In this document: in pieces, positions 15,986 to 24,404 of the stretch
Numbering within the stretch: the stretch's first letter is position 1
Layout: the number at the start of each line of letters is the position of its first letter
Assembly: GCA_021324945.1 (NCBI GenBank)
Contig: JAJPID010000066.1
Coordinates: 1-59,474 of the forward strand
Reading direction: 5' to 3'
Source: Lysobacterales bacterium
GTDB lineage: Bacteria; Pseudomonadota; Gammaproteobacteria; Xanthomonadales; Rhodanobacteraceae
Length of the DNA: 59,474 nt
The notes under the pieces: model-generated
Databases searched by the model: none
Told to the model about the DNA's origin: nothing
Seen by the model: only the letters and a program-made list of their open reading frames with translations
Program-made: the position numbers and the translations under genes

Positions 15986-17212
15986 TCACGACTCGACGCG
16001 CGGCATGCCGAATCTCACCCCACGCGCTTCCGGCCCGAATCCGGCCAGCAGCGTCAGCAAGATCGCCACGCAGCCGATCCACACGCTCTGTGCGAACGCG
16101 TAATCGCCGCCGCGCGCATGTGCCAGCCACGCGAGAATGGTCGCGGTTCCGGCCGCGATGAGATTGCCGAGCTGATAGGCGAATCCGGGCAACGTGCCGC
16201 GTACGTCGTCCGGCGAAAGTTCGTTCAAGTAGCTCGGCACCACACCCCACGCGCCCTGCACCGCGACCTGGATCAGGAACGCGCCGAGTCCCAGCAGGAT
16301 CAGCGAATTGCCATACGTCCACAACGGAATCACCGGCAATGCCAGCAGAGCGGCAATCGCCATCGCGCGCCGGCGGCTGATTTTTTCCGACCACGCGCCG
16401 AACGTCAGTCCGCCGACCAGCGCACCGAGATTCAGTACGATCGTGAGCAAGCTCACCAGGTGCGTATCGAAATGCTTTTGCGCTTTCAAGAATGTCGGAT
16501 ACACATCCTGCGAGCCGTGGCTGAACATGTTGAAGGCCGCCATCAGCAACATCAGATAGACGAACAAACCCCAGTGGCCGCGCATCGCTTTCAATGCGCC
16601 CAGTCGCGCGCCGCTGCGCTGTTGGAATACTGGCGATTCAGGCACCCTGCTTCGGATGTAAAGCACCAGCAGCGCCGGCGCCGCGCCCAGCACGAACATG
16701 CCGCGCCAGCCGATCGTGTTGAACAGCAGGCCATACAGCAATGCGCCGATCAGGTAACCGCAGGGATAGCCGCTCTGCAGCAGGCCGGAGACGATGCCGC
16801 GCGCTCTCGGCGGAATCGATTCCATTGCCAGCGAGGCGCCGATGCCCCACTCGCCCCCCATCGCGATGCCGAACAGCGCGCGCAACACCAGCAGCACGAT
16901 CAGCGACGGCGCGAACGCGCAGGCCAGCTCCAGCACCGAATACAGAACGATGTCCAGCATCAATATCGGCCGGCGACCGAAGCGATCCGCCAACCGTCCG
17001 AAGATCAGTGCGCCCAGCGGACGGAACGCCAGCGTCAGCAGCAATGCCAACGTGACTTCGGTGACGCCGACGCGAAACGTGCGTGCGATCTCCGGGATCA
17101 CGAACACCAGCAGAAAATAGTCGAATGCATCGAGCGTCCAGCCGAGGAAACTCGCCGCGACAGTGTGACGCTGCGTGCTGTCCAGCTCGCGCAAGATGCC
17201 GAGCGTGCTCAT
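15986..17212 (-). CDS. MFS transporter, sialate/lactate (SHS)-like
   Basis: 408 aa, about 12 membrane helices. The first helix carries FLGWTLDAFDYFLLVFV, a signature of the SHS family (JEN1 lactate and NanT sialate permeases). The MFS loop motif is GRLADRFGRRP and the second half repeats FGAWSEKISRRRA. The likely substrate is a monocarboxylate or similar acid taken up with protons. The start ATG at 17212 overlaps the stop of the cytochrome c'-like gene by 4 bp (ATGA), so expression is coupled. The open frame upstream of this start is antisense noise within that gene. Confidence 0.88.
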   Translation of the reverse strand: MSTLGILRELDSTQRHTVAASFLGWTLDAFDYFLLVFVIPEIARTFRVGVTEVTLALLLTLAFRPLGALIFGRLADRFGRRPILMLDIVLYSVLELACAFAPSLIVLLVLRALFGIAMGGEWGIGASLAMESIPPRARGIVSGLLQSGYPCGYLIGALLYGLLFNTIGWRGMFVLGAAPALLVLYIRSRVPESPVFQQRSGARLGALKAMRGHWGLFVYLMLLMAAFNMFSHGSQDVYPTFLKAQKHFDTHLVSLLTIVLNLGALVGGLTFGAWSEKISRRRAMAIAALLALPVIPLWTYGNSLILLGLGAFLIQVAVQGAWGVVPSYLNELSPDDVRGTLPGFAYQLGNLIAAGTATILAWLAHARGGDYAFAQSVWIGCVAILLTLLAGFGPEARGVRFGMPRVES

Positions 17213-17769
17213 TTGCCTTGCGCTGCCGGCGCGTATTGCAAATCGTCCAGCATTGGCGTTTTCGGTCGGCCGATGATCAGCATCGGATTGCCCGCGACGC
17301 GATGGCAGCCGGTGCACGCGGCCGAAAGATCGTCGTAGGCCTGGGCGAATTTCGCCTTGTCGTGCGTGCCGATCGCAGCCATCAGATTCTTCAGCGGCAC
17401 ATTCAACATCGCCGGCATGATTTCCGACAATTTCTGCGGTTGCAGTTCGGCGGCATCGCCGTTGGTTTCGACGATGCCCTGGATCGCCTCGCCGATTTCG
17501 CCGGCCATGTAATAGGCCAGATTCCAGTTGCCCGCTTCGCCCGCCCACCACAGCCGATCGTGGCGCAATTCCAGAATGAGCATTTGATTGCCGAGTTCCG
17601 GCTGCGTGCGTTTTTCCAGTTCGGCGATACGCTGTTCCAGTGCCTTGATCCGTGCAGTTTGCGCGGGGTCCGAGGCTTGTTGCGCGCCTGCCTGAGCGGC
17701 AAAGGCCGAGGGATTGGCCAATGCGCAAATTGTGCTCATTGCGATCGCCGCGCGCCGCCAACCATTCAT
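17209..17769 (-). CDS. Exported cytochrome c'-like protein
   Basis: 186 aa from ATG 17769, preceded by GAGGAGCGATC. Residues 1-24 form a signal peptide (ending AFAAQ), followed by a short coiled-coil segment ARIKALEQRIAELEKR. The rest is helical and carries a single haem c motif CTGCH near residue 152, followed by RVAGNPML. A haem site close to the C-terminus of a helical domain is typical of class II cytochromes (cytochrome c'). Electron transfer or gas binding in the periplasm is inferred. It is divergent from rnfA and translationally coupled to an SHS-type transporter. Confidence 0.8.
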   Translation of the reverse strand: MNGWRRAAIAMSTICALANPSAFAAQAGAQQASDPAQTARIKALEQRIAELEKRTQPELGNQMLILELRHDRLWWAGEAGNWNLAYYMAGEIGEAIQGIVETNGDAAELQPQKLSEIMPAMLNVPLKNLMAAIGTHDKAKFAQAYDDLSAACTGCHRVAGNPMLIIGRPKTPMLDDLQYAPAAQGK

Positions 17770-17847
17770 GATCGCTCCTCGTTCATATTGATCCATTGAT
17801 GATCGCAGAAATGACATCGCTGCGCGTCAAGCGGCGCTGTCGGCCCG

Positions 17848-17882: not shown

Positions 17883-18443
17883 ATGCAAGGATTCGCCGCC
17901 ATCCTGATCGGCGCCGCCCTGGCGAACAACGCCGCGCTCGCTTACCTGCTCGGGCTCGATCCCGCCTTGCACGGCGAGAGGCGGCTGCTCGACGCGGCAC
18001 GGCTCGCGCTTGCCACGGGTGGCGTGTTGGTCGCAGCGGCGATCGTCTGCTGGCTGATCGAACGCTTTCTGTTGACGCCTTTCGATCTCGACTGGCTGCA
18101 CGCGTTGGTTTGGCTGCTGGTGGTCACGGCGCTGGCACCTTGGCCGCGCGCGTTACTGGGCCGGCACGGTTCCCTTCCGGCCCTGTCACCTCTGCTGCTG
18201 ATTGGCAACGGCTTGGTGCTGGGTGCGCTCGCGTTGAACGCGCATGCCGGTTTCATCGCGATGGCAGGTCGCACGCTTGGTATTGTGATCGGCTTCGGCA
18301 TTGTCCTGCTGCTGTTCACGGCGATGCACGACCGTCTGAACGACGCCGACGTGCCGGCGCCGTTTCGCGGCACGCCGATCCTGCTGATCACCGCGGCGAT
18401 CATGGCGCTGGCATTCATGGGCTTCACAGGTTTCGGAAGATGA
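17883..18443 (+). CDS. rnfA: Rnf complex subunit A, missing Fe-S cysteines
   Basis: 186 aa, about six membrane helices, aligning along its length with E. coli RsxA/Rnf[17 protein letters not shown] against VLVNNFVLVKFLGLCP, and [26 protein letters not shown] against the near-identical RnfA end. RnfA and RnfE pair in the inner membrane and together hold a [2Fe-2S] cluster through two Cys each. Here both RnfA ligands are changed: D26 for the LGLC cysteine and G110 for the TNC cysteine. The only Cys is C56. First gene of the rnf operon. The ATG lies 7 bp after a TACAAT -10-like hexamer, so the mRNA could be leaderless. Confidence 0.88.
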
Positions 18444-18982
18444 TGACGGCGATCACAACGCTGTTGCTGCTCGTCTTGTTCGCCGCTGCCTGCGCGGCTT
18501 GGCTGCGCACTGAGCAAAGCAGGGTCGATGTCGAGGCGCTGACCGAACGCATCAACGCACTGCTGCCGCAAACACAATGCACGCGTTGCGGCTATCCCGC
18601 GTGCAGACCCTATGCGGAAGCGATCGCCCATGGCGAGGCGCCAATCAACCGCTGTCCGCCCGGCGGCGAGGCGGGCATCCGCGCCCTCGCCGCCTTGACC
18701 GGACGTGCCGTGCAGCCGCTCGATCCTGCGTGTGGTGAAGAAATGCCGCCGCGCGTGGCGCTCATCGACGAGGACGCCTGCATCGGCTGCACCAAGTGCA
18801 TCCAGGCCTGCCCGGTTGATTCGATCGTCGGTGCGGCGAAAGTGATGCACACGGTGATCTCGCAGCAATGTACCGGCTGCGAATTGTGCATTCCGCCCTG
18901 TCCGGTCGATTGCATCGCCATGGTGCCGCTGCTCGTGGATGCGCGCGAAGCCGCGCGCCCGGCAGTGCCGTACGCGGCATGA
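18440..18982 (+). CDS. rnfB: Rnf complex ferredoxin subunit B
   Basis: 180 aa. One N-terminal membrane helix (residues 3-21), then the CX2CX4C-X16-C cluster site ([16 protein letters not shown] and NRCPPGG), then two 4Fe-4S ferredoxin motifs, [14 protein letters not shown] and [14 protein letters not shown]. All twelve expected cysteines are present, so this subunit looks fully functional. It passes electrons between RnfC and the membrane subunits. It starts at ATGATG overlapping the rnfA stop and ends overlapping the metallophosphoesterase start (ATGA). Confidence 0.95.
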
Positions 18983-20019
18983 ACAACTTGCTGGCGAAAA
19001 TCCGGCTCGCGCGCTGGTACGTGCGGTTGGCGCTGTGGCTGATCGCGCTGGGGCTGTTTTGCGTGCTTTGGCCCGCGCTGGAATTCCAGCGCTTCATCAT
19101 CGAGCCCGAGAACCGTTGGAAAGCGTTTCTGCAGCTCGCAATGCTGCACGGCTCGTGGTTGCTGTTTCCGCTGATCGCGGAAGCGGCACTGATCCTGGTC
19201 GATCGAGAGCGCCGACATTATTACCGTCGTGCCATCGGTGCGGCGCTTGTGCTGCTGTTGTCCCTGACGGCCGTGTACGCGCGCTTCGTCGAACCGCGCC
19301 TGCTGGTAGTGCGCACCACCGTGGTGCCGGCGCCGGTCGATCTGGATATAGCGTTGGTGGCAGACGTCCACGTCGGCCTGTTCACGCGCACCGACAAACT
19401 GCAGCAGATGGTCGAACGGTTGAACGCGTTGCATGTCGATCTGGTGCTGTTCGCCGGCGACCTTACCTACGATCCGCCGCGCGATCTCGCTGCCGCGCTC
19501 GCGCCATTGAAACATTTGAACAAGCCGATGTACGCGGTACTCGGCAATCACGACGTGCAACTGCCCGGGCCGCCGCTGGAAACGAAGATTCGCGCGGCGC
19601 TGACCGGCGCGCCGGTGATCTTCATCGAACACCGTGTGCTGGATTTTCCGCGATTCCGCCTCGCCGGTTTGTACGACTACTGGACCGCTCTGGACGACAC
19701 GGATTTTCTGCGCGCGCTACCGCCCGACAAGCCTTTGCTCGTGCTGATGCACCAGCCGCATTCCCTGCGCGAATTGCGCGGTGTGGATTTTGCGCTGGCG
19801 ATGGCCGGGCACACGCATGGCGGCCAGGTCGCGCTGCCGTGGATCACCGCGGCGGTGTTCAAGGTCGATCGCGGCGAGATCTACATCGATGGGCTGCACC
19901 ACACGCCGCTTGGCAATCTGTTCGTGACACGCGGCGTGGGCGTGACCGGTACGCCGGTGCGGTTGAATTGCCCACCGACGATCGACTTGATCGAACTGCG
20001 ACGAAATGCGAAAGAATAG
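18979..20019 (+). CDS. Membrane-anchored metallophosphoesterase inside the rnf operon
   Basis: 346 aa. Three hydrophobic helices come first (about residues 14-34, 53-74, 82-100). A calcineurin-like phosphoesterase domain follows, with all metal motifs: DVHVG, GDLTYD, GNHD, MHQPH and GHTHGG. The layout resembles the YkuE/YaeI and LpxG-like phosphodiesterases, some of which cleave UDP-diacylglucosamine or other lipid-linked phosphates. The substrate is not known. It sits between rnfB and rnfC, overlaps the rnfB stop by 4 bp and precedes rnfC by 9 bp. This is not part of the standard rnf cluster, although the coupling implies co-expression. Confidence 0.92.
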
Positions 20020-20028
20020 GATCCACGT

Positions 20029-21576
20029 GTGCGCATCCATCGTTTCCATGGCGGGCTGAAGTTGCAAGGCCGATACGGCGCCGCGCCTGCGCCGATCCGT
20101 GATTGCCCGCCGCCTCCGCGGCTGTACGTACCGTTGCTTGCGCGCGAAGGCAAAATCGAGCCGATCGTTGCGATCGGCGCACGCGTGCTGCGCGGCCAGT
20201 GCATCGGCGAACCGCGCGGCATCGGCGCGCGCGTGCACGCCGGTACATCCGGCACGGTGATCGCGATCGAACAACGCGATGTCGCATCATCGAAATTCGT
20301 GCACGCCTCGTGCATGGTGATCGAGGCGGATGGTCAGGACCACTGGCAACGTTCACCCGCCATCGATGATTGGCGGAACGCTTCGCGCGAAACATTGCTC
20401 GCGCGTCTGCATGATGCCGGCATCGTCGGTCTGGGTGGTGCGGCATTCCCCGTCGACATCAAACTCGCCGCGCCGGCCGAAACGTTGATCCTCAACGGCG
20501 CCGAGTGCGAACCCGGCATCGGTTGCGATCGCGCGCTCATGATCGAACGTGCGCGGGAAGTGGTGCAAGGCGCGGCGCTCCTGGCGCGCATCGTCGGCGC
20601 GCGGCAGACGATCATCGTATTGGAGGATTCGTTGCAGGATGCTCATGCGGCGATGGAAAGCGCGCTGCGTCTGCACCCATTCGAGGGTGCGGCGCTGGCA
20701 CAGGTGCCGACGCGCTACCCGCAAGGCGGCGAGCGGCAATTGATCCAGACGCTCACCGGCCGGGAAGTGCCTGCGCACTGCCTGCCGCGCGAAATCGGCG
20801 TGCTCTGCCAGAACGTCGGCACTGCGGCGGCGGCCTGGCGCGCGGTTGCGCACGGCGAAGCGCTGACGTCGCGCATCGTCAGCATCAACGGTGCGGGGTT
20901 GACCCACCCGGGTAATTACGAGGTGCGCATCGGCACCCCAATCGCATGGCTGCTCGAACAGGTCGGCGGTTTTCCGCCGCGTGTCGCGCGTCTGGTAGCG
21001 GGCGGCGCGATGATGGGCGTCGCATTGCCGCACGACGACATCCCCATCGATGCAGGTTGCAACGGGATCCAGGTGCTGGATGAAAGCATGATCAAACCGC
21101 CGGCGCCGGAAATGCCGTGCATCCGCTGCGGCGAATGCGTGCGGGTGTGTCCTGCGCAATTGCTGCCACAGCAGTTGTTCGCGAATCTGATGCGTGACGA
21201 CTCGCCGCGCGTGCAGCTACACAAGCTGGATGCCTGCATTGAATGCGGCTGCTGCGCGACGGTGTGCCCTTCGCAGATTCCGCTGGTGGCGTGGTATCGC
21301 TGGGGCAAATTGCAATTGCGCGAGCAGACAAAAGCGCGCGAACTGTCGCAAGCATCGCGGGTACGATTCGAAATACGCAATGTCCGGCTGCAACGCGAAC
21401 GCGAAGAGCGCATTGCGCAACGCACGTCCGGCGAGCTTCCGGCGGAAAGCCGGGTCGCGACGATCACCAAGTCCGACGTGCTGGCCGCCATCGCGCGCAG
21501 CCGTGCGCGGCGCGACGCGCAGCGCCGCTCGCAACGCGATAGGCAGAATTCCGATGGCGATGGAGAGGGCCAATGA
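20029..21576 (+). CDS. rnfC: Rnf complex NADH-binding subunit C
   Basis: 515 aa from a GTG start. It begins IHRFHGGLKLQGR, similar to the FKGGI start of RnfC. It has the NADH/FMN Rossmann-like region GLGGAAFP and NGAECEPGIGCD (related to NuoF), an SLBB-like segment, and two 4Fe-4S motifs, CIRCGECVRVCP and CIECGCCATVCP. The C-terminal 80 residues are a charged Arg-rich tail, shorter than the long repeat tail of E. coli RsxC. It is the cytoplasmic entry point for electrons from NADH. Its stop overlaps the rnfD start. Confidence 0.94.
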   Translation: MRIHRFHGGLKLQGRYGAAPAPIRDCPPPPRLYVPLLAREGKIEPIVAIGARVLRGQCIGEPRGIGARVHAGTSGTVIAIEQRDVASSKFVHASCMVIEADGQDHWQRSPAIDDWRNASRETLLARLHDAGIVGLGGAAFPVDIKLAAPAETLILNGAECEPGIGCDRALMIERAREVVQGAALLARIVGARQTIIVLEDSLQDAHAAMESALRLHPFEGAALAQVPTRYPQGGERQLIQTLTGREVPAHCLPREIGVLCQNVGTAAAAWRAVAHGEALTSRIVSINGAGLTHPGNYEVRIGTPIAWLLEQVGGFPPRVARLVAGGAMMGVALPHDDIPIDAGCNGIQVLDESMIKPPAPEMPCIRCGECVRVCPAQLLPQQLFANLMRDDSPRVQLHKLDACIECGCCATVCPSQIPLVAWYRWGKLQLREQTKARELSQASRVRFEIRNVRLQREREERIAQRTSGELPAESRVATITKSDVLAAIARSRARRDAQRRSQRDRQNSDGDGEGQ

Positions 21577-22631
21577 CGACTTTCGCCATCGCGCCCGCAC
21601 CTCACCTGCCCGCGCGCACGACGGTGCGGCGCGTGATGGGCGACGTGCTGATCGCGCTCGTCCCGGGCGTGGTCGCGCAGGTGTGGTATTTCGGTTTCGG
21701 CGTGCTGGCGCAGATCGCGCTGGCGATTTTCTTCGCGCTGATTTTCGAATCGGCCATGCTGCGCCTGCGCGGCCAAACGCAAAGGCCGTGGATCGGCGAT
21801 CTCTCCGCGCCCGTGACGGGCGCGCTGTTCGCGCTGTGTGTCCCCGCGTGGTCGCCGTGGTGGATTTCGTGCATCGCCATGTTCGCGGCGATCGTTTTCG
21901 CCAAGCATTTGTATGGCGGACTCGGAAAGAACATCTTCAATCCGGCGATGGTCGGTTACCTCGTCGTACTGCTCGCGTTTCCGCTGGCGCTGGCGCGTTG
22001 GCCTGCGCCGGCCCCGCCGACAGCGCATGCGCCTGGCTTCGGCGATCTCCTGCAAACAATCTTCAGCGGTCATCTGCCCGCTTCGCAGAATTTCGACGCA
22101 CTTTCGCAGGCCACCCCGCTGGACACGGTGAAGATCGAGGCTGCGCGTGGTTACACGCTCGCGGAGATCCGAGGCAATCCGGTATCTGGTCAAATATTCG
22201 GCGATCTCGGTAGCAATGGTTGGGAATGGATCGCCAACTGGTATGCGGTTGGCGGCCTATACCTCTTGTGGCGGCGCGTGATCCATTGGCACGTGCCCGT
22301 GGCGCTGCTCGGCACCACGATCCTGCTCACCGTTCCGGCGTGGATCATCGATCCCGACGTCAATCCGCTGCCGTTACAGCACGTGTTCTCCGGCGGCCTG
22401 ATGCTGGCGGCGTTCTTCATCGCCACGGATCCCGTGACTGGAGCGGCCACACCGCGCGGACGCTTGATCTTCGGCGCGGGTGTGGCCGCGTTGACGCTCG
22501 CGATCCGCCGCTGGGGCGCATATCCCGATGGTGTGGCCTTCGCCGTGCTGCTGATGAATTGCTGCGCGCCTTTGCTGGACCGCATCACCATCCCGCGCGC
22601 GTATGGCTATGGCCTCTCGTGCGATGAGTAA
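21573..22631 (+). CDS. rnfD: Rnf complex subunit D
   Basis: 352 aa, an NqrB/RnfD membrane protein with about nine to ten helices. The covalent FMN site is retained: Thr in SQATPLDTVK, equivalent to SGATPL in other RnfD proteins. Further family blocks are FAKHLYGGLGKNIFNPAMVGY, PLPLQHVFSGGLMLAAFFIATDPVTGA and RRWGAYPDGVAFAVLLMN. It forms part of the ion-translocating core. It starts within the rnfC stop (ATGA) and overlaps rnfG by 8 bp. Confidence 0.95.
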   Translation: MTTFAIAPAPHLPARTTVRRVMGDVLIALVPGVVAQVWYFGFGVLAQIALAIFFALIFESAMLRLRGQTQRPWIGDLSAPVTGALFALCVPAWSPWWISCIAMFAAIVFAKHLYGGLGKNIFNPAMVGYLVVLLAFPLALARWPAPAPPTAHAPGFGDLLQTIFSGHLPASQNFDALSQATPLDTVKIEAARGYTLAEIRGNPVSGQIFGDLGSNGWEWIANWYAVGGLYLLWRRVIHWHVPVALLGTTILLTVPAWIIDPDVNPLPLQHVFSGGLMLAAFFIATDPVTGAATPRGRLIFGAGVAALTLAIRRWGAYPDGVAFAVLLMNCCAPLLDRITIPRAYGYGLSCDE

Positions 22632-23235
22632 CCGCAACGTCTCTGTCGCATTCGCGATCGCGATCCTCTGTATCGCGATCTTGATCGGCGCCTGGGCGTG
22701 GCTCTCGCCGCGCATCCACGCGCAAAGCGAACACGCGCGGCTGACGGAACTGGCAGATGTGCTGCCACCCTTTCTCTACGACAATGATCCGTTGACCGAT
22801 CGCATCATGATCAGCGATCCGTTGCTGGCTACCGATCGGCCATTGCCGGTGTTGCGCGCGCGGATGCACGGACGACCGATCGCGTTGGTGCTGCATGCGG
22901 TTGCGCCAAACGGTTATGGCGGCCCGATCGTTCTGCGCATCGGCATTCGCTACGACGGAAGCCTCATCGCCGTGCGCGTACTGGAGCCACACGAAACGCC
23001 GGGCATCGGCGATTCGATCGAGCGCACCAGCAGCCACTGGATCGAACGGTTCCGCGGACGCTCGTTGCGCAGTCCCGAAGAGGACAAGTGGAAACTGCGC
23101 ATGGACGGCGGCGACTTCGATCAGCTCGCTGGCGCCACCGTCACGCCGCGCGCCGTGGTCGCAGCGGTGGCAAACGCGTTGCGGTTTTATGGCGAGAATC
23201 GTACAAGATTGTTCTTGCCGTCGAATCGATCATGA
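22624..23235 (+). CDS. rnfG: Rnf complex FMN subunit G
   Basis: 203 aa. One N-terminal membrane helix (about residues 7-27), then a periplasmic FMN-binding domain. The covalent flavin site is the Thr in QLAGATVTPRAVV, matching the S/TGAT motif of RnfG and NqrC. Also visible are HETPGIGDSIE (family: ETPGLGD) and WIERFRG. ATG 22624 lies 6 bp inside the rnfD 3' end; an earlier in-frame ATG at 22603 is less likely. Its stop overlaps rnfE (ATGA). Confidence 0.92.
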   Translation: MSNRNVSVAFAIAILCIAILIGAWAWLSPRIHAQSEHARLTELADVLPPFLYDNDPLTDRIMISDPLLATDRPLPVLRARMHGRPIALVLHAVAPNGYGGPIVLRIGIRYDGSLIAVRVLEPHETPGIGDSIERTSSHWIERFRGRSLRSPEEDKWKLRMDGGDFDQLAGATVTPRAVVAAVANALRFYGENRTRLFLPSNRS

Positions 23236-23759
23236 TCACCACACGCTCGATGGTCCCCTGGCTCTCCCTCTGTCCGCTGCTCGCGGTCGCGCGCGGCTGG
23301 GGCGAGGCGCTGGTATTGGCGATCGGTTTGCTGGTGTGCGCCGTCGCAACCTCGATCGCCTTGAAGATATCGCGAAGGTTCGTGAGCGCATCGCTGCTTT
23401 CGCCGTTGACCGTGCTGGTCGCGGGAACTGTCGTGGTGCTGGAACAACTTGCACTGTCGGCATGGTGGCCGGATTGGAATACGACGATCGCGCCGTGGTG
23501 GGCGCTGGTCGCGGGACTGTCGGTGCTCGTGTGTTGCCCAGCGGGTAATTCAGACGACAACCGGAGCTTTACGCACAGCCTGGAACTCGCGTCGGCTCTT
23601 TCGGCGGCGCTGCTGATCGTCGGTATCGCGCGCGACGGTTTCGGACGCGTGTTCTGGATCGCGAACACGCCGGCAGGCGTGCTGGCATTGCTGGCGTTGT
23701 TGTTGGCGGGGATCCAAGCGCTGCGCCTCTCCTCTTTCTTCGAGCGAAGAGGGAAATAA
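23232..23759 (+). CDS. rnfE: Rnf complex subunit E, short and divergent
   Basis: 175 aa against about 230 in E. coli RsxE. The match starts at WLSLCPLLAV (family LLGLCPLLAV), so the usual N-terminal half-helix with the NN motif is missing and no upstream start can supply it. Both predicted [2Fe-2S] ligands remain: C14, and C101 or C102 (VLVCCPAG against IVTNCIVVG). About five hydrophobic helices follow. Identification rests on operon position and the CPLLAV block. RnfE pairs with RnfA, which here lacks its cysteines. It ends directly before nth with no gap (TAA then ATG). Confidence 0.82.
   Translation: MITTRSMVPWLSLCPLLAVARGWGEALVLAIGLLVCAVATSIALKISRRFVSASLLSPLTVLVAGTVVVLEQLALSAWWPDWNTTIAPWWALVAGLSVLVCCPAGNSDDNRSFTHSLELASALSAALLIVGIARDGFGRVFWIANTPAGVLALLALLLAGIQALRLSSFFERRGK

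Positions 23760-24404
<645 letters not shown>

Follow-up and report, generated by a model that had tools for sequence, protein, structure and literature searches.

An Rnf operon of Rhodanobacteraceae that lacks most cysteines of the RnfA/RnfE [2Fe-2S] site and may persist as a one-way NADH outlet

In the 2025 review cited here, the electron path of the Rnf complex is given as leading from RnfB via the [2Fe-2S] cluster of RnfA and RnfE to the FMN of RnfG, from there to the FMN and the riboflavin of RnfD and finally via RnfC to NAD (PMC12174285). The RnfA/RnfE metal site is called strictly conserved in Rnf and NQR in the cited sections of two papers (PMC9588780, PMC12174285). A single Fe was modelled at this site by Vitt et al. 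(2022; PMC9588780), who call the cysteines invariant, and a [2Fe-2S] cluster was seen there by Kumar et al. (2025; PMC11889175). For A. woodii it was shown that mutants of the cluster cysteines do not grow on H2+CO2 and that the variants are without ferredoxin:NAD activity (PMC11889175). Several related systems have been described. The Rsx system of E. coli consists of the same subunits, and Na+-NQR has a homologous membrane core. Moreover, one-way half-path NQR/RNF-like systems, encoded by differently built gene clusters, were proposed (Meheust et al., 2021, PMC8238504); in these an RnfD homologue fused to an NqrF-type NAD domain would pass electrons from cytosolic NAD(P)H to a periplasmic FMN domain, only two subunits being apparent in the sections cited (PMC8238504, PMC10979944). 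In full-text searches covering the main text of open papers, no earlier description of an Rnf complex without the cluster cysteines was recognised.

The stretch of DNA analysed here (the window; 59,474 nucleotides) derives from a genome of 2.50 Mb (99% complete, 67 contigs). It encodes all six Rnf subunits in the order A-B-(insert)-C-D-G-E (Table 1); each frame from rnfA to rnfE either overlaps the next or is at most 9 bases away from it, and the operon is intact. The GC3 values of rnfA (0.80) and rnfE (0.78) are like those of the neighbours (0.75-0.79). RnfB, RnfC, RnfD and RnfG all score above the cut-offs of their NCBIfam subfamily models, while RnfA (TIGR01943, 104.9 bits, cut-off 229.3) and RnfE (TIGR01948, 33.7 bits, cut-off 213.4) both score below theirs and above the cut-off of Pfam PF02508. 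With RnfABCDGE of known structure (PDB 9eri, 7zc6, 8ahx) the window shares the six subunits, the operon order, the cofactor residues of RnfB, RnfC, RnfD and RnfG and probably the RnfA fold. However, of the four cluster cysteines of canonical Rnf, RnfA lacks both of its own and RnfE lacks one. Since Rnf subunits are present but the defining cluster cysteines fail, this is, by its sequence, a variant of Rnf: Rnf by its subunits, yet without one defining feature. It differs from Na+-NQR by having RnfB and RnfC in place of NqrF and NqrA and by the loss of the cluster cysteines. In contrast to the half-path systems RnfC is separate, and the eroded RnfA and RnfE as well as an intact RnfB remain; a fusion of RnfD to the NAD domain PF00175 is absent, the RnfD of the window matching only PF03116 in Pfam. 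The metallophosphoesterase gene between rnfB and rnfC, whose ATG lies in a 4-base overlap with the 3' end of rnfB, was rejected as a conserved Rnf partner, as no similar frame was found in the compared rnf loci of relatives (phmmer, E<=1e-5).

Table 1. Genes and codons of the rnf region, in positions of the window.
Feature	Positions	Strand	Remarks
rnfA	17883..18443	+	186 aa, without either [2Fe-2S] cysteine; PF02508 70.2 bits (cut-off 23.8)
rnfA codon Asp26 (GAT)	17958..17960	+	replaces ligand cysteine 1
rnfA codon Gly110 (GGC)	18210..18212	+	replaces ligand cysteine 2
rnfB	18440..18982	+	180 aa; TIGR01944 216.8 bits (cut-off 68.7)
metallophosphoesterase gene, insert between rnfB and rnfC	18979..20019	+	PF00149 51.0 bits
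rnfC	20029..21576	+	515 aa; TIGR01945 429 bits (cut-off 245.95)
rnfD	21573..22631	+	352 aa; TIGR01946 372.2 bits (cut-off 207.05)
rnfG	22624..23235	+	203 aa; TIGR01947 162.9 bits (cut-off 102)
rnfE	23232..23759	+	175 aa from ATG; PF02508 35.5 bits (cut-off 23.8)
rnfE codon C14, last ligand cysteine of four	23271..23273	+	
rnfE codon Ser97, second ligand position	23520..23522	+	
nth (endonuclease III), directly 3' of rnfE	23760..24404	+	PF00730 89.7 bits

The first-pass annotation had placed Asp26 and Gly110 at the two ligand-cysteine sites of RnfA. This assignment agrees with phmmer alignments to the solved RnfA chains 7zc6_A, 9eri_A and 8ahx_A, and the two columns, C26 and C110, are the same in an alignment of 33 rows. 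Two observations had been named as speaking against it, namely cysteines at shifted positions and a second complete rnfA in the genome, and neither was found. The sole cysteine of the protein, C56, sits in a column in which the fraction of Cys is 0.00 among the rows of loci from named genomes, so that a shifted ligand cysteine is absent. Of a second rnfA there is no trace among the PF02508 matches of the genome, which are two in number, rnfA and rnfE of the operon. The AF2 model of RnfA is of medium confidence (pLDDT 72.5, pTM 0.65) and has its best matches in the RnfA chains 9eri_A, 8ahx_A and 7zc6_A (A. woodii, A. vinelandii, C. tetanomorphum), with TM-scores of 0.67-0.69 by query length (9eri_A: 0.69, rmsd 6.7). 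The fold is probably kept, a weakly supported reading because the input alignment contained 32 canonical RnfA.

The partner subunit is affected as well. RnfE keeps its first ligand cysteine, C14, and has S97 at the second position, leaving one of four ligand cysteines at the [2Fe-2S] site of the window. Furthermore, it is shortened at the N-terminus and has lost the GRAEA segment that follows the second site. Its AF2 model has medium confidence (pLDDT 79.1, pTM 0.72). Two adjacent cysteines lie a few residues past the second site and are absent from nine other RnfE rows. As read from these residues, the four-cysteine [2Fe-2S] site of RnfA/RnfE is broken.

The loss recurs in relatives (compared genomes are given as G numbers, loci as L numbers). 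RnfD scores above the Pfam cut-off in 9 of the 147 genomes of the same family, two more giving weak matches, and in all nine RnfA is without both cysteines. The residues at the two RnfA sites are D/G (window), E/G, E/S, D/A in three genomes, D/S, L/A and gap/A. Their RnfE keeps the first cysteine in the window, G200, G211 and G226 and the second in none of the nine. Neither subunit has any ligand cysteine in five of the nine (G262, G239, G272, G217 and G012); in the last four the profile missed RnfE, and the frame between rnfG and nth was taken for it by eye, on position only. One more genome of the family, G251, carries rnfA (F/A) and rnfB and gives no RnfD match. Outside the family there is one case each in two other families of the order, which to judge by named neighbours is probably Lysobacterales. 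G002 has RnfA with G/V, a single PF02508 match in the genome and an rnfCDG locus without detected RnfE, and G373 has RnfA with A/C and RnfE with L/C, thus keeping the second cysteine in both subunits, a loss pattern unlike that of the family clade. RnfA of congeners of these two (G014, G024, G075 and G116) has C/C. Of the 11 Cys-losing genomes, only G373 has Cys at the second RnfA site, the other ten having Gly, Ser, Ala or Val there.

In loci of named genomes RnfA is C/C in 80 of 80; these are the 80 best matches out of 537, in a scan that may omit records very close to the window. In further genomes 83 loci were read, of which 56 (48 genomes) are C/C, one (G066) is cut and the other 26 come from 12 Cys-losing genomes; the 48 C/C genomes are no random sample because they represent best-scoring loci plus chosen places, and in six of them the protein scores low and may be NqrE. 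G281, with a 48-residue RnfA piece at a contig end, and G066, whose frame is cut before the second site, were excluded from the cysteine counts. A PF02508 match of G013 below the cut-off lies in a 501-residue frame that resembles, by eye, a transporter of another family and was dropped. By these site readings the RnfA/RnfE cysteine loss is a clade trait. In a maximum-likelihood tree of RnfC+RnfD (33 rows, 19 of which were flagged by the tree program for unlike letter make-up), the nine family members form one clade (96/95), G002 groups with G014/G024 and G373 groups with G075/G116. Three independent cysteine losses are forced by the well-supported branches of this tree.

The claim that RnfB, RnfC, RnfD and RnfG keep their cofactor residues was borne out by retention counts and alignments. 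In the window, RnfB has each of the 13 invariant cysteines of canonical RnfB, and RnfC keeps the NADH/FMN domain, two 4Fe-4S motifs and 9/9 cysteines. RnfD keeps T181, which we take to be the FMN threonine, as well as the predicted riboflavin ligands N123 and D286, and RnfG keeps Y98 and the putative FMN threonine T172. The corresponding Thr, Asn and Asp of RnfD and Thr and Tyr of RnfG are present in 11/11 Cys-losing genomes; two positions ahead of the FMN threonine of RnfG, G272 has His and G217 has Ser in place of Gly. All 13 RnfB cysteines are found in 10/11 and all nine RnfC cysteines in 10/11 of these genomes (exceptions G226, G002). The roles of the RnfG FMN and riboflavin residues follow the assignment made for A. 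woodii (PMC11889175). G226, listed as a single contig, has its rnfB broken into two frames, with the N-terminal and C-terminal parts apart (L036 7920-8965); either a frameshift or a sequence error may lie behind this.

RnfB itself scores above the cut-off in 146/147 family genomes, though most are without the rest of Rnf, and the same model is above the cut-off in 5/14 control genomes too. Among the best rows of the 146 genomes, a start of the match at or before model position 14 is seen in the 11 genomes that have rnfA or rnfD and also in G229, where the match contains a stop; in G226 it is the second piece that starts this early. In the remaining genomes the best match begins at position 19 or later. 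This suggests that RnfB retains its putative N-terminal membrane part only where the complex is present, and as the RnfB N-terminus tracks the complex it can be argued that the complex still assembles. It also speaks somewhat against an RnfB that is wholly separate from the complex. The lone RnfB of family genomes without the complex is ferredoxin-like and is matched without the N-terminal part.

To locate the erosion, a residue was counted as invariant if its conservation among canonical rows reached 97% (57 to 78 rows depending on the subunit, rows shorter than 85% of the median length and exact duplicates having been dropped), so that canonical rows score high by construction. The extraction HMMs were seeded from the window's own proteins and their scores lean to the variants; the retention counts are independent of these scores. 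The window keeps 39/66 invariants in RnfA and 13/35 in RnfE, and 47/53 in RnfB, 70/74 in RnfC, 54/54 in RnfD and 27/33 in RnfG. Across the 11 Cys-losing genomes RnfA keeps 21-45 of 66 and RnfE (ten genomes) 11-23 of 35, RnfB 47-50 of 53 (G226: 35/53), RnfC 63-73 of 74, RnfD 48-54 of 54 and RnfG 23-32 of 33. RnfA and RnfE thus lose about a third to two thirds of their invariants and, by this measure, the erosion is concentrated in these two subunits. A milder loss is seen elsewhere: RnfC lies below the canonical range in 9/11, RnfD in 6/11 and RnfG in 6/11 Cys-losing genomes, the lowest RnfG being that of G272 (23/33). In the window RnfC (0.95 vs. 0.96) and RnfG (0.82 vs. 0.88) fall below the canonical range and RnfD does not.

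For substitution rates, dN/dS was taken as a simple Nei-Gojobori estimate on GC-rich sequence from pairs that share genomes. In canonical pairs it is 0.05 for RnfA and 0.09 for RnfE (G014/G024) or 0.14 and 0.31 (G075/G116). In the Cys-less pair G200/G211 it reaches 0.36 for RnfA and 0.81 for RnfE, next to 0.24 for RnfB, 0.40 for RnfC, 0.34 for RnfD and 0.42 for RnfG. Six other Cys-less pairs (four among G239, G217, G272 and G012, plus G226/G262 and G000/G211) give 0.52-0.71 for RnfA and 0.54-0.95 for RnfE. Several pairs thus have an RnfE close to neutrality, and RnfA is relaxed. RnfB remains at 0.14-0.30 and RnfC overlaps between the groups (0.27-0.47 Cys-less vs. 0.24 and 0.39 canonical). RnfD (0.28-0.51 in the seven Cys-less pairs vs. 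0.12 and 0.22 in the two canonical pairs) and RnfG (0.40-0.69 vs. 0.15 and 0.40) are, on these estimates, relaxed as well, though less than RnfA and RnfE. The open rnfE frame was discarded as a sign of selection: it is weak evidence, because a simulated neutral rnfE (0.4 substitutions per site) stays stop-free in 20-83% of the runs, the range being the spread by genome.

A changed RnfA/RnfE pair next to less-changed NADH and flavin parts suggests an Rnf complex that is either rewired or decaying in order. The reading that we prefer, with a probability of just under one half, is that in the cluster-free Rnf the ferredoxin-side crossing is dead, while NADH-RnfC-RnfD-RnfG may persist as a one-way electron conduit that leads through flavins from NADH to the periplasm. 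Rnf has two membrane crossings, one via the RnfA/RnfE cluster, which is broken here, and one via RnfD, which looks intact. Without the cluster, RnfB would be unable to pass electrons across the membrane to RnfG, and with this crossing cut the coupled ferredoxin:NAD turnover and the ion pumping would be lost. The RnfD crossing would most likely still run, with NADH feeding RnfC, RnfD and then the periplasmic covalent FMN of RnfG, and this FMN may pass electrons one way to a periplasmic acceptor. RnfA and RnfE would stay as a scaffold that anchors RnfB and RnfG. The flavin transferase ApbE, which attaches the flavins, is present in 11/11 tested family genomes with rnfA or rnfD vs. 8/15 without; since ApbE thus also occurs without Rnf, this distribution fits a use of the Rnf flavins and is no proof of it.

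The cysteine loss, the erosion weighted to RnfA/RnfE, the flavin residues kept in 11/11, the ApbE distribution, the three losses and the RnfB N-terminus all fit the outlet as so far described, as do the A. woodii cysteine mutants (PMC11889175) and the half-path systems proposed elsewhere (PMC8238504). The mild erosion of RnfC, RnfD and RnfG, the raised dN/dS of RnfD and RnfG, the remnants in G364, the split rnfB of G226, the His and Ser variants of RnfG, the ApbE genes in genomes without Rnf and the lack of a match to the cytochrome-like neighbour of rnfA in the loci of relatives are, at the level of these comparisons, arguments against it. A more far-reaching form, in which within this bacterial order a two-crossing redox pump became a one-crossing NADH outlet at least three times through closure of the RnfA/RnfE cluster path, with an acidic residue that replaced the cysteine and was mostly kept in the family clade, is put forward tentatively, the odds leaning against it.

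The main rival is ordered decay, which we regard as a serious, if somewhat improbable, explanation. Here Rnf is no longer needed and the cluster pair decays first, followed by the rest until RnfB alone is left; the window would be at an early to middle stage, its complex doing little or nothing. Such a course accords with RnfD being without a match at E<=0.001 in 136/147 family genomes next to the RnfB retained in 146/147, and with 10/10 other sampled genomes of the window's genus having no RnfA or RnfD match. It also accords with the RnfE dN/dS of 0.54-0.95 in six Cys-less pairs and 0.81 in G200/G211, with RnfC, RnfD and RnfG being mildly eroded too, with the split rnfB of G226, with G373 as an intermediate having lost one Cys per subunit, and with G364, which has pieces only, including an RnfA C-terminal remnant within the rnfB frame. 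However, the window keeps 54/54 invariants in RnfD and 70/74 in RnfC vs. 13/35 in RnfE, so that constraint on RnfC and RnfD seems to have outlasted the cluster. Moreover, in 6/7 Cys-less pairs frames and flavin-site residues persist although the identity of RnfC and RnfD has dropped to 54-70%, and the operon of the window is intact. In G364 itself, the RnfB frame (L212 1468-2265) matches the C-terminal part of RnfA with its N-terminal part, and an open frame with only the RnfC ferredoxin domain (L211 5946-7234) adjoins an RnfD remnant and nth; this genome may be further along in the loss or may have a reduced system of another kind.

The residue that replaces the first RnfA cysteine bears on decay and on a further alternative. 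The ligand-1 column is acidic (Asp/Glu) in 7/11 Cys-losing genomes, all seven in the family clade. Of the 190 columns with no more than 5% acidic residues in canonical RnfA, none besides this one is acidic in more than 4/11. As a column pattern this speaks against plain decay of RnfA, although shared ancestry explains part of it. The cluster-free RnfA/RnfE might instead carry a proton or cation via the acidic residue, a redox-free ion path driven by turnover of RnfC, RnfD and RnfG, and a Na+ placed next to the cluster in A. woodii (PMC11889175) would suit this idea. We consider it improbable, as the position is Leu in G272, a gap in G012, Gly in G002, Ala in G373 and Phe in G251 (read apart), the seven acidic RnfA share ancestry and RnfE is near neutral in several pairs. 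In addition, the GRAEA segment lost from the RnfE of the window holds, counted from C108, the Na+-site residue E115 of A. woodii.

The first-pass annotation had proposed a variant Rnf complex in which the cluster is lost or asymmetric or in which Asp26 serves as a ligand. The variant with a lost cluster has stronger support than had been claimed, since RnfE is altered as well and relatives show the same trait. The asymmetric cluster and the ligand role of Asp26 fared badly. A cluster held by other ligands, as an example by Asp26 of RnfA together with Cys14 and Ser97 of RnfE, could draw on the first RnfE cysteine kept in the window, G200, G211 and G226, but it is very unlikely: Gly110 offers no ligating side chain, the second RnfA site is non-Cys in 10/11, all four positions are without Cys in G239, G272, G217 and G012 (their RnfE being assigned by position), and the two further adjacent cysteines of the window's RnfE are missing from the nine other rows. 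Asp26 as a replacement ligand is thus unlikely as far as the alignments go. Least probable of all is a SoxR-reducing (Rsx) role as in E. coli: the subunits are the same and NCBIfam Rsx models are among the matches, but the cluster cysteines are lost, the window genome has neither SoxR above the cut-off nor a RseC match, and the occurrence of SoxR (4/11 Cys-losing, 0/4 canonical and 4/12 family genomes without Rnf) and RseC (0/11, 2/4 and 0/12) does not track the cysteine loss.

If the preferred reading of a one-way NADH outlet holds, natural cluster-free complexes that arose three times beside intact flavin and NADH sites would separate the two membrane crossings of Rnf. They allow a direct test of the second crossing alone and of the need of the cluster for ion transport. 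Moreover, the presence of rnf genes alone is unsafe ground for annotating ion pumping.

Further observations concern the surroundings of the rnf genes. A divergent frame adjoining rnfA (17209-17817, minus strand) encodes 202 aa with CTGCH near the C-terminus, which is presumably a heme c motif of the CxxCH type, and has no Pfam match. It may perhaps encode a c-type cytochrome of the periplasm that could accept electrons; as a conserved Rnf partner it was rejected, as phmmer gave no match at E<=1e-5 in the compared loci of relatives. In the window and in G200/G211 there is a single joined rnf operon. Many relatives have rnfAB in one place and rnfCDG(E) in another (L026, L036-L040, L142-L147, L213, L215-L223). 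A methionyl-tRNA synthetase gene (Pfam) adjoins rnfAB in G226, G217, G239, G262, G272, G012, G251, G373, G364 and canonical relatives, and nth adjoins rnfCDG(E) in all compared loci except that of G002 and the partial locus of G281.
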